Of a stretch of 64,000 nucleotides of DNA, positions 43,963 to 56,100 are shown one piece after another (within the stretch, counting starts at the first letter, position 1; each line of letters starts with the position of its first letter). The position numbers were made by a program, and so were the translations under genes. The notes beneath the pieces were generated by a model. The model was given only the letters and a program-made list of their open reading frames with translations, did not search any database and was not told where the DNA came from. Location of the stretch: positions 1,302,001 to 1,366,000 of the forward strand of contig NZ_CP010836.1 in the NCBI RefSeq assembly GCF_000935025.1, read 5' to 3'. The DNA comes from Sphingomonas hengshuiensis (GTDB taxonomy: Bacteria > Pseudomonadota > Alphaproteobacteria > Sphingomonadales > Sphingomonadaceae).

Positions 43963-44328
43963 GTGGCTCTACGACAGGGCGCAGGGGGGGCGCCGTGGCT
44001 TGAGCGCCGGTGATTGGACGAAGGGCTGCTAGCGCACAAACGCGGTCTTTCCAATCCTCCCCCGCCATGGCAGGGCTATCGCATATGGAGCGGGGGGCTT
44101 CTCCCACTTTCCGTCATGCTGAACTTGTTTCAGCATCCAACCCTCCGCCAGCATTGCCGTCGCTTGTTGCGCCATGGATGCTGAAACAAGTTCAGCATGA
44201 CAGCGGTGATAAAGGGCGTCCGCATCCAAAATGCGATCGCGCCAAGGTCAGTCGTTCATTGTGCGGCGTCGCTTGCCCAGAACCGGGCTTTCGTTCAGCC
44301 TCGCGACGACAAATCAGCGGGAGACAGT
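43963..44328. other. Intergenic region with REP-like palindrome
   Basis: This 366-base gap between mutL and the next gene holds the 27-bp-arm inverted repeat at 44113-44201. Apart from this I see no gene. Two short Gly/Pro-coding frames are compositional noise. Confidence 0.55.
44113..44201. repeat. REP-like palindrome, 27-bp perfect arms
   Basis: The left arm (44113-44139, beginning GTCATGCTGAACTTG) and right arm (44175-44201) are exact reverse complements separated by 35 bases. I recall this sequence as a common dispersed intergenic repeat in sphingomonads and some other proteobacteria. Each arm also contains an inner short palindrome (GCTGAA...TTCAGC), so a two-level stem can form. No transposase lies beside it. 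Confidence 0.8.
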
Positions 44329-54094: not shown

Positions 54095-55024
54095 GTGGTG
54101 ATCGCGCTCGGGCTGGGGGTGCTCCAATATTGGGGCGGCCCCGGCCCGGCGCGCAGCAATGTTTCGGTGGAAGTGCCCGACGGCGCGACGCTGACCCGCG
54201 CCGCGGCCGAGCTGGAAAAGGCCGGCGCGATCCGCTCCGCGCGCCCATTCGTGCTGCTGGCGCGCGTGCTGGGCGGCGGCGAGGCGATCAAGGCGGGCGA
54301 ATATCGCATCCCCGCGCGGCTGAGCGAGGCCGACATCCTCAAGCTGCTCCAGGGCGGGCGCACGCTCCAGCGTTTCGTGACGATCCCGGAGGGTACGCCC
54401 TCCATCCTGGTCTATGAGACGCTGATGAAGGCGCCGCAGCTCAGCGGGACGATCGCGGTGCCCGAGGAGGGCAGCGTGCTGCCCGACAGCTATGCCTATA
54501 ATCGCGGCGACACGCGGCAGGCGATGCTGGAGCGGATGCAGAAGGCGATGACCGACTATCTCGCCAAGGCATGGGAAGCGCGCAAGCCCGGCATCGCCGT
54601 GAAGACCCCGCAGGAAGCGCTGATCCTCGCCTCGATCGTCGAGAAGGAGACCGGCAAGCCGGAGGAGCGCCGGACGGTCGCCGCGGTCTATTCGAACCGG
54701 CTGCGGCAGAATATGATGCTCCAGGCCGACCCGACGATCATCTATCCGATCACCAAGGGCAAGCCGCTGGGCCGCCGCATCCTCCAGTCCGAAGTGCGCG
54801 CGGTGAATGCCTATAACACCTATGCGATGACCGGCCTGCCCGCCGGGCCGATCGCCAATCCGGGGCGGGCGAGCATCGACGCAGTGCTCGACCCGGCGCA
54901 ATCGACCGCGCTCTATTTCGTCGCGGACGGCAGCGGCGGGCACGTGTTCGCCGACACGCTGGAACAGCATAATGCGAACGTGCAGAAATGGTACGCGCTG
55001 CGGCGGGCTAGGGGTGAGATGTAG
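54095..55024 (+). CDS. mltG: Endolytic murein transglycosylase MltG
   Basis: A protein of about 309 residues (YceG family) that cuts nascent glycan strands near the membrane. It has an N-terminal membrane helix (V-I-A-L-G-L-G-V-L) followed by a LysM-like region (G-A-T-L-T-R-A-A-A-E-L) and the catalytic part with L-A-S-I-V-E-K-E-T-G, whose Glu is the catalytic acid, then L-Q-A-D-P-T-I-I-Y, Y-N-T-Y and G-L-P-A-G-P-I-A-N-P-G. GTG 54095 is the first standard start but cuts the membrane helix short; the frame stays open to 54017 and a CTG at 54023, overlapping the fabF end, would give the full helix. The true start is uncertain. Confidence 0.9.
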   Translation: MVIALGLGVLQYWGGPGPARSNVSVEVPDGATLTRAAAELEKAGAIRSARPFVLLARVLGGGEAIKAGEYRIPARLSEADILKLLQGGRTLQRFVTIPEGTPSILVYETLMKAPQLSGTIAVPEEGSVLPDSYAYNRGDTRQAMLERMQKAMTDYLAKAWEARKPGIAVKTPQEALILASIVEKETGKPEERRTVAAVYSNRLRQNMMLQADPTIIYPITKGKPLGRRILQSEVRAVNAYNTYAMTGLPAGPIANPGRASIDAVLDPAQSTALYFVADGSGGHVFADTLEQHNANVQKWYALRRARGEM

Positions 55025-55033
55025 GCTTAATCG

Positions 55034-55102
55034 CCTGAGGTCCCGGCTTTCGCCGGGATGACGGGCGGGGGGCGTCATCCCGGCGAAAGCCGGGACCTCA
55101 GG
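55034..55102. repeat. 30-bp-arm palindrome, copy 1
   Basis: Left arm 55034-55063, right arm 55073-55102, exact reverse complements with a 9-base loop. Each arm contains a further inner palindrome (CCCGGCTTTCGCCGGG region). The flank AGGAAGG (55105-55111) doubles as the ribosome site of the nuclease gene. Confidence 0.9.
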
Positions 55103-55118
55103 AGAGGAAGGACCGCAC

Positions 55119-55406
55119 TTGCCCGGCTGGACCTACATCATGACCAACAAGCCGCGCGGGGTGCTCTACATCGGCGTCACCGCGGCGCTCAACCAGCGCG
55201 TGCAGCAGCATCGCGAGGGCAAGGGCTCCAGCTTCTGCGCCCGGTACAATCTCACCCGGCTCGTACTCGCCGAGCCGCATGACTCGATCGACGACGCGAT
55301 TGTTCGTGAGAAGCGGCTCAAGGAGTGGCGGCGCGCGTGGAAGATCGCGCTGATCGAGGAGACCAATCCGGAGTGGCGGGATTTGTTTGGGGAGGTTTGG
55401 GAGTAG
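55119..55406 (+). CDS. GIY-YIG nuclease family protein
   Basis: A 95-residue single-domain GIY-YIG protein (UPF0213/YhbQ-like). Visible motifs: the GIY-like G-V-L-Y-I-G-V-T at residues 14-21, an Arg/His helix (R-V-Q-Q-H-R-E-G), the Y-N-L-T-R-L-V strand, and the conserved E-K-R-L-K-E-W-R-R-x-W-K with catalytic Glu, then N-P-E-W-R-D-L. The start is TTG 55119 with AGGAAGG about eight bases upstream, supplied by the flank of palindrome copy 1. The gene is enclosed by the two palindromes and looks like the active part of a small mobile unit. Alternatively it is a domesticated repair nuclease. Confidence 0.88.
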   Translation: MPGWTYIMTNKPRGVLYIGVTAALNQRVQQHREGKGSSFCARYNLTRLVLAEPHDSIDDAIVREKRLKEWRRAWKIALIEETNPEWRDLFGEVWE

Positions 55407-55411
55407 AGTCG

Positions 55412-55482
55412 CCTGAGGTCCCGGCTTTCGCCGGGATGACGCATCCACAAACCGTCATCCCGGCGAAAGCCGGGACCTCAGG
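55412..55482. repeat. 30-bp-arm palindrome, copy 2
   Basis: Left arm 55412-55441, right arm 55453-55482, identical to copy 1 in both arms, with an 11-base loop of different sequence. It lies five bases after the nuclease stop and ends 13 bases before the eda stop; it can act as terminator for both converging genes. Confidence 0.9.
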
Positions 55483-55494
55483 CAAGGAAGGACT

Positions 55495-56100
55495 TTACGC
55501 CCCCAGCCCAGCCGCAGCCCGAGCCTTCGCCTCCACCTCGTCCATCGACCCCGTAGCGATCCAGCTTCCGCCAACGCACAGCACCGGCCCGAAGCTCAGC
55601 CACTCCGGCGCGCTCGCCAGCGTGATGCCGCCGGTGGGGCAGAATTTCGCCTGGTAGAAGGGCGCGGCGAGGGCCTTGAGCGCCTTCAACCCGCCCGAGG
55701 TCTCGGCGGGGAAGAATTTGAAATATTCGAGGCCCAGGTCGAGCCCGCGCATGATGTCGCCCGCGGTCGCGGTGCCGGGGAGGAACGGGACGCCGCTGGC
55801 GATGATCGGGTCGGCCAGCCGCTCGGTCAGCCCCGGCGAGACGATGAACTCGGCGCCGGCGTCCATCACCTGCTTGAACTGCGCGCCGTTGACGACGGTG
55901 CCCGCGCCGACGATCGCGCCGGGGACCTTCTGCATCTCGGCCATCGCCTCCAGCGCGGCGCCGGTGCGCATCGTGACTTCGAGCACACGCAGGCCGCCCT
56001 TGACCAGCGCCTCGGCCAGCGGGCGCGCGGTGGCGGCGTCCTCGATCACCAGCACGGGGATCACCGGGCTGGTGCGCATGATCGTCTCGATGGTCGTCAC
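55495..56100 (-). CDS. eda: 2-dehydro-3-deoxyphosphogluconate (KDPG) aldolase
   Basis: A 201-residue class I aldolase that splits KDPG to pyruvate and glyceraldehyde-3-phosphate, the last Entner-Doudoroff step. Motifs: V-I-P-V-L-V-I, E-V-T-M-R-T (Glu), G-A-G-T-V, and the Schiff-base Lys in F-K-F-F-P-A-E, then P-T-G-G-I. Start GTG 56100 follows the glk stop with no gap. Last gene of zwf-pgl-edd-glk-eda. Confidence 0.96.
   Translation of the reverse strand: MTTIETIMRTSPVIPVLVIEDAATARPLAEALVKGGLRVLEVTMRTGAALEAMAEMQKVPGAIVGAGTVVNGAQFKQVMDAGAEFIVSPGLTERLADPIIASGVPFLPGTATAGDIMRGLDLGLEYFKFFPAETSGGLKALKALAAPFYQAKFCPTGGITLASAPEWLSFGPVLCVGGSWIATGSMDEVEAKARAAAGLGA

Follow-up and report, generated by a model that had tools for sequence, protein, structure and literature searches.

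A nuclease gene between two long palindromes

The locus studied here raises the question of what a small GIY-YIG nuclease gene is doing between two long palindromes, and whether gene and palindromes together make up a mobile unit, as an earlier note on this DNA had proposed. The window, i.e., the whole stretch of 64,000 nucleotides that was analysed, comes from Sphingomonas hengshuiensis. Repeat comparison within the window gave a 33-nt direct repeat (55031-55063 and 55409-55441, 100% identical), a 41-nt direct repeat (55073-55113 and 55453-55493, 95%) and inverted arms of 31 nt (55411-55441 and 55453-55483, 100%). These coordinates agree with the two long palindromes described in the note, which are near-identical double palindromes, and its outer flanks, TCGCC and AGGAAGGAC, were both recovered. 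Folded as single-stranded DNA, the first palindrome reached -45.1 kcal/mol (z -13.0) and the second -45.8 kcal/mol (z -14.1), and none of 200 shuffles folded as well as either of them.

The open reading frame at 55119-55406 matched PF01541 (GIY-YIG) at E 8.5e-13 in a profile search and matched no other domain, confirming that a small GIY-YIG gene is enclosed by the palindromes. The neighbours were identified by profile as PF02618, YceG (MltG), and PF01081, KDPG/KHG aldolase (Eda), which places the gene in the mltG-eda gap. Convergent stop codons at 55022-55024 and 55495-55497 bracket the unit; i.e., the window gene is intergenic, and the unit fits between convergent stops as had been claimed. 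The further proposal that the flank of the first palindrome supplies the ribosome site is plausible from the sequence, in which AGAGGAAGGA precedes a TTG start at 55119. The AlphaFold model of the nuclease (mean pLDDT 95.7) has the GIY-YIG fold. Its closest solved folds were 1zg2 (UPF0213) and then the branched-DNA nuclease Slx1, none at E 0.001 or better; the likeness to UPF0213 lies in the shared fold (profile E 3.9e-8), with 26% identity in the fold comparison.

Both double palindromes consist of two CGTC REPs placed tail to tail. The features are as follows.

55031..55063, - strand: REP a, outer member of the left tail-to-tail pair, with its tag end (GACG) to the right
55073..55102, + strand: REP b, CGTCATCCCGGCGAAAGCCGGGACCTCAGG, left end of the inner unit
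55073..55441, + strand: inner unit (CGTCA-hairpin, gene, hairpin-TGACG), 369 bp, with bounds by analogy with relocated homologues
55103..55112, + strand: AGAGGAAGGA, probable ribosome-binding site, from the flank of the first palindrome
55119..55406, + strand: GIY-YIG nuclease of 95 aa (PF01541), TTG start at 55119
55409..55441, - strand: REP c, right end of the inner unit, with its tag end (GACG) to the right
55453..55483, + strand: REP d, outer member of the right tail-to-tail pair
55485..55493, + strand: AGGAAGGAC, which repeats the flank 3' of REP b
44112..44201: second CGTC REP pair, of the type flanking paralogue L003, with no nuclease match (one member at 44112-44138; both members on the contig at 1346113-1346138, +, and 1346176-1346201, -)

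One further REP lies beyond each end of the inner unit. The bounds 55073-55441 are probable ones, taken from the relocated units described below.

The palindromes are CGTC REPs

The window palindromes are members of a superfamily of CGTC-tagged REPs that was described in 2013, apparently without a dedicated transposase (Di Nocera et al., PMC3733652), and they are not new in kind. According to that paper, these repeats have a CGTC tag and a hairpin, are dispersed and found in inverted pairs, are mostly alphaproteobacterial and include dRS3 of Neisseria; their published form has a stem of 8-9 bp, a loop of 4-5 and a short unpaired tail, mostly CCA. It also reports tagged hairpin repeats from over 80 species in 8 phyla, and a preference of REPs for convergent and unidirectional gaps. 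The tag, the hairpin, the dispersed copies and the inverted pairing are the same in the host genome studied here. The difference is that the paper reports no association with transposase genes and has neither "GIY-YIG" nor "COG2827" in its main text, whereas the repeats studied here enclose a nuclease gene.

All four single REPs that were folded showed an unpaired CGTC or CGTCA tag with the hairpin next to it. Stems were 8 bp long in the L003 and L004 types (loops of 5 and 4) and 7 bp long in the window and L002 types (loops of 4 and 5). The REP copies of the window run on as CCTCAGG, not as CCA, and the other types matched to TCC or CCC alone. With a stem of 7 bp and no CCA tail, the window copies depart slightly from the published form. 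A genome search for the arm, as the note had suggested, found 36 matches to the 24-base arm with at most 3 mismatches, the four of this locus included; the majority lie a long way from the five nuclease genes. The general CGTC-REP pattern gave 143 matches in the host genome and 1 in a reversed control. Among the 100 host REPs listed, 86 could be assigned to one of the five types that flank nuclease genes, with at most four edits; of the remaining 14, nine share a single covarying form of the L003 type, and the other five are apparently chance matches.

Most homologues are flanked by matched palindromes

The host genome contains five nuclease genes, the other four being 48-58% identical to that of the window. 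In four copies the gene is bracketed by matched palindromes, and L005 has an array on one side only; the five palindrome types all differ in sequence. We then compared the 350-bp flanks of homologous loci by ungapped alignment at a threshold of 18. The first set of 94 same-genus loci comprised the 5 own loci, the 29 best of other genomes and 60 chosen mostly from multi-copy genomes, and 44 further loci, some partial, came from the same search; two contig-edge matches and some weak or partial ones were left out, and L036, a copy of L003, was dropped. Both flanks carried a matched repeat at 99 of the 138 loci (74/94 and 25/44), and 39 failed. When flanks were swapped, 29/258 combinations within a genome and 159/1500 between genomes passed, and sliding positions in the window passed at 2/405.

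The pattern extended beyond the genus. Among named genomes, which include Flavobacteriaceae, a Neisseria MAG, a Thermaceae MAG and a Sulfurovum MAG, 64/75 loci passed against 156/1000 swapped; this set is the best 80 of 531 relatives, with 5 dropped for short flanks, and many of its loci are alike. Class-wide, the repeat was matched at 18 of 28 loci from 22 families (27/756 swapped). The locus sets overlap because L138 and L049 are apparently one locus (100% over 591 bp). Regular flanking of the gene by the palindrome, which the note had put forward for checking, was thus found at all three levels. The note had named two outcomes that would speak against a mobile unit, namely homologues at a conserved mltG-eda position in all relatives with no palindromes, and dispersed palindromes with no association with GIY-YIG genes; neither was seen as worded.

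Fifteen weaker GIY-YIG matches had been meant as a negative control, and 11 of them had matched palindromes of another kind. They led into a second GIY-YIG subfamily, flanked by CCGTTCG/CCCTGAGC-TTGTCGAAGGGC palindromes (L316-L360, same-genus and same-class loci). In this subfamily, the flanks matched at 17/30 loci against 119/870 swapped, or at 16/28 without L352 and L360, which lie at contig ends and are still in the swapped set. At several of these loci the open frame seems to continue into the palindrome.

Nuclease type and palindrome type go together

We compared 174 loci in 14,622 pairs that were non-syntenic in both DNA and protein. A common palindrome type was found in 156/7312 pairs (2.1%) at less than 50% amino acid identity, 223/5457 (4.1%) at 50-60%, 276/1421 (19%) at 60-70%, 214/306 (70%) at 70-80% and 119/126 (94%) at 80% or more. 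Many of the pairs at 80% or more trace to a single group of similar loci in other genera and are not independent. Just 8 of the 126 are same-genus pairs, of which 7 share the type; the others involve named genomes and are not independent. Same-genus pairs with at least 70% identity shared the type in 46/72 cases, compared with a null mean fraction of 0.10 and a maximum of 0.25 in 2000 permutations. Nuclease type and hairpin type are thus coupled wherever in the genome the gene lies, and the enzyme would be predicted to recognise its cognate hairpin.

In 61 genomes, L003-type palindromes became more numerous as identity to the L003 nuclease, taken from the best match in each genome, rose (rho 0.55, kinship ignored). 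For the L005, L004, L002 and L001 nucleases, rho was 0.38, 0.35, 0.16 and -0.04, respectively, the correlations with the two non-cognate paralogues L004 and L005 also being significant. A clade version of the test gave a weak contrast, with the clade chained to 41-50 of the 61 genomes.

The nuclease appears to be kept as a protein. Median dN/dS was 0.078 in the 121 of 126 non-syntenic pairs with finite dS, and a stop inside the match was present in 15/174 copies. Y6, G14, Y17, G19, R27, H31, E64 and N83, presumably the positions of the GIY-YIG motif, are kept in at least 97% of the 174. A phage or intron homing endonuclease was rejected, as none of 50,697 phage records matched at E 1e-5 and the window copy is intergenic.

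The unit has usual ends

Boundaries were assessed in all 268 non-syntenic pairs with at least 75% identity. A unit was called in both members of 176 pairs, and in 92 none was called in at least one member. Homology stopped no more than 10 nt from the left outer tag in 159/176, from the right one in 142/176 and from both in 132/176, leaving 44 pairs in which it did not stop that close to both tags; within the genus, both ends fitted in 12/13 pairs. In a comparison of six pairs, three fitted. Well-fitting pairs are L040/L066 within one genome and L040/L052 and L002/L041 between genomes; L051/L057 and L005/L040 fit poorly. The 39 same-genus units with both tags, among which the window copy is not counted, had a median length of 406 bp (range 370-560), and the base just outside the CGTC tag was a pyrimidine at 68/77 ends. 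The unit thus has usual ends, from outer CGTC to outer GACG, and is about 400 bp long.

L067 and L071 (genome G059), the sole pair within one genome above 90% identity (91%), remain similar for about 270 bp past the left tag and belong to a larger duplicated segment; that copy was therefore not made by moving the bare unit. As a separate observation, L078, L079, L088, L094, L100, L117 and L123, two of them in G054, have flanks that are about 90-98% identical over about 600 bp between species.

A REP dimer that may carry its own nuclease

Our preferred reading, held with moderate confidence, is that the unit represents a CGTC-REP dimer with a nuclease of its own, specific for its hairpin, and so an autonomous "REPtron" independent of RAYT. 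Its architecture, its pairing with hairpins type by type, its ends, its occurrence in different places, its presence and absence at one site and its gene-less copies were observed directly. The mobile unit proposed in the note is upheld in its structure and dispersal; mobilisation by the enzyme would be a further step, suggested by the dispersal of the unit and by the parallel with RAYT and REPINs.

In the REPtron or RAYT-REPIN system, as far as the cited sources describe it, hairpin repeats occur in inverted pairs, the gene lies near cognate repeats, gene-less copies are dispersed and several repeat-gene pairs exist; its enzyme, RAYT, is a tyrosine transposase of the HUH class, and its repeats are of the GTAG kind (PMC3116915, PMC8266576, PMC8049555). 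Inverted hairpin pairs, cognate repeats near the gene, multiple pairs and gene-less copies are common to both systems, and the REP/RAYT parallel that the note had drawn holds for the architecture. In contrast to that system, the enzyme here is of PF01541, with no Y1/HUH gene between the repeats, and the tag is CGTC rather than GTAG. The window unit is therefore like a REPtron without being one. A profile search of the host genome found no intact RAYT (PF01797), and a resident RAYT was rejected on that ground; a broken Y1 transposase fragment with an internal stop, a partial PF01797 match, is at G000:C1:4567200-4567382.

The most serious rival holds that the enzyme acts on its palindromes without mobilising them: it would cut cognate palindromes, e.g., in single-stranded incoming DNA, thereby tuning natural transformation or recombination; its gene would lie among its targets, and the palindromes would have spread by other means. 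Neisseria offers evidence for this reading. A homologue from Neisseria gonorrhoeae, in a chromosome-sized record of the plasmid collection, is 51% identical over 89 residues and is ringed on both sides by CGTCATTCCCGC-type, dRS3-like repeats. A 2025 study reportedly describes Ssn, a site-specific single-stranded nuclease that acts on Neisseria repeats and affects transformation; we take the gonococcal gene found here to be ssn and its flanking repeats to be like the Ssn targets. With the Ssn nucleases, the unit would share a small GIY-YIG enzyme, the gonococcal gene being the one with CGTCATTCCCGC-type repeats around it, and it would differ in the cognate pairing of multiple paralogues and the mobile-unit structure added here. 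The Ssn work is said to cover part of the nuclease-repeat finding; our literature search of open-licence papers found, among the matches listed, none joining GIY-YIG with REP repeats.

Genome counts bear on both readings. In favour of the REP dimer, the median net number of REPs in 241 alphaproteobacterial genomes was 7 with the nuclease (n=72) and 1 without it (n=169; p 7e-9, kinship ignored), where 7 of 79 genomes with weak nuclease matches alone were counted as without. Among genomes of 3.5-5.5 Mb, 17/33 with the nuclease and 2/48 without it had at least 15 REPs. REP-rich genomes lacking the nuclease do exist, which counts against the dimer and for a target-site enzyme: where the net count reached 25 REPs or more, 6 of 25 genomes had none at the threshold used. 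However, a nuclease that only cuts leaves unexplained that relocated copies mostly share the hairpin-to-hairpin unit alone, and that paralogues with different palindromes coexist. We regard this reading as unlikely, yet deserving of real weight.

Sites with and without the unit

On Sphingobium plasmids, the site between fnrL and a response regulator has the unit in seven cases and lacks it in four (19 records with any match). We aligned four plasmids with the unit and four without (L278-L281, L283-L286). Among those lacking the gene, TomTYG74 and TomTYG64 have at the site one palindrome that joins the two outer halves of the unit, and TomTYG72 and TomTYG65 have unrelated repeats; among the plasmids with the unit, TomTYG73 carries a frameshifted copy. 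A clean insertion with a resolved target, at which a target-site duplication might be read, did not turn up. Gain and loss are not polarised because the gene-less sites hold either the joined palindrome or unrelated repeats, and the single palindrome fits loss of the unit and an unfilled target alike.

The mltG-eda gap was also compared, since the note had suggested looking for empty sites there. In six relatives (G009, G064, G015, G003, G019 and G062), mltG and eda are adjacent without the gene; the gap contains a CGTC REP pair in G019, a degenerate pair in G062 and other palindromes in G003 and G015. The suggestion was borne out as to relatives without the gene, but their flanks are too diverged to give the exact junction of a clean empty site that would correspond to the window copy. 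No junction was obtained for the L066 locus in relatives either. The site of L087 is occupied by other palindrome pairs in G008, G060, G053 and G013, by another palindrome in G010, by something else in G045 and by a related gene in G005; filling by other palindrome types could reflect an insertion hot spot just as well as mobility. Separately, L207 (G004), near eda, shows a hairpin with a CGTC tag at both ends, like the single palindrome of Sphingobium.

These sites could also be read as homing, in which the nuclease would break palindromes already in place and repair would copy its gene into the break, the palindromes then being targets and not offspring. The joined palindromes of TomTYG74 and TomTYG64, and the gene-less palindrome pairs that fill the same gaps in some relatives, speak for this reading. 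However, deletion across a short repeat in the two ends of the unit would give the same palindrome, TomTYG72 and TomTYG65 are without a joined one, and the multi-copy families paired with each nuclease still need a source; homing into palindromes is accordingly, in our judgement, distinctly improbable. That the palindromes are transcription terminators near convergent 3' ends with the gene between them by chance has the convergent mltG-eda gap and the reported preference of REPs for such gaps (PMC3733652) in its favour, but we rejected it as almost certainly wrong, as 74/94 nuclease loci pass the flank test compared with 2/405 sliding positions and 11% of swapped flanks, and the identity of the nuclease predicts the palindrome sequence.

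Proposed mechanism and meaning

Under the preferred account of a REP dimer with its own nuclease, the enzyme would bind its cognate hairpin when the DNA is single-stranded, on the lagging strand or in incoming DNA, and would cut near the unpaired CGTC tag. The hairpin-bounded strand would thereby be freed or exposed and then copied or pasted elsewhere, and gene-less dimers would be its non-autonomous offspring. Single-strand cleavage by the enzyme would be expected by analogy with the reported Neisseria work, and transposition may follow from the dispersal of the unit and the likeness to RAYT and REPINs. To our knowledge, GIY-YIG enzymes do not join strands; joining would therefore probably be left to host polymerase and ligase.

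We propose more tentatively, as a possibility, that small GIY-YIG nucleases in general mobilise CGTC REPs, with several enzyme-hairpin pairs per genome, and that the second subfamily mobilises CCGTTCG/CCCTGAGC-TTGTCGAAGGGC palindromes. Penelope-like retroelements of eukaryotes carry a GIY-YIG endonuclease, and we know of no described bacterial DNA transposase that uses this fold. If this broader reading is true, it would amount to a DNA transposition system built on the GIY-YIG nuclease fold. The five natural enzyme-hairpin types in one genome presumably reflect diverged hairpin specificity. The GTAG class of REPs has a partner enzyme, RAYT, whereas the CGTC class was without one in 2013, and the gene described here is a possible partner; as the nuclease gene lies inside the repeats and is matched to them type by type, the question of the partner is directly testable.
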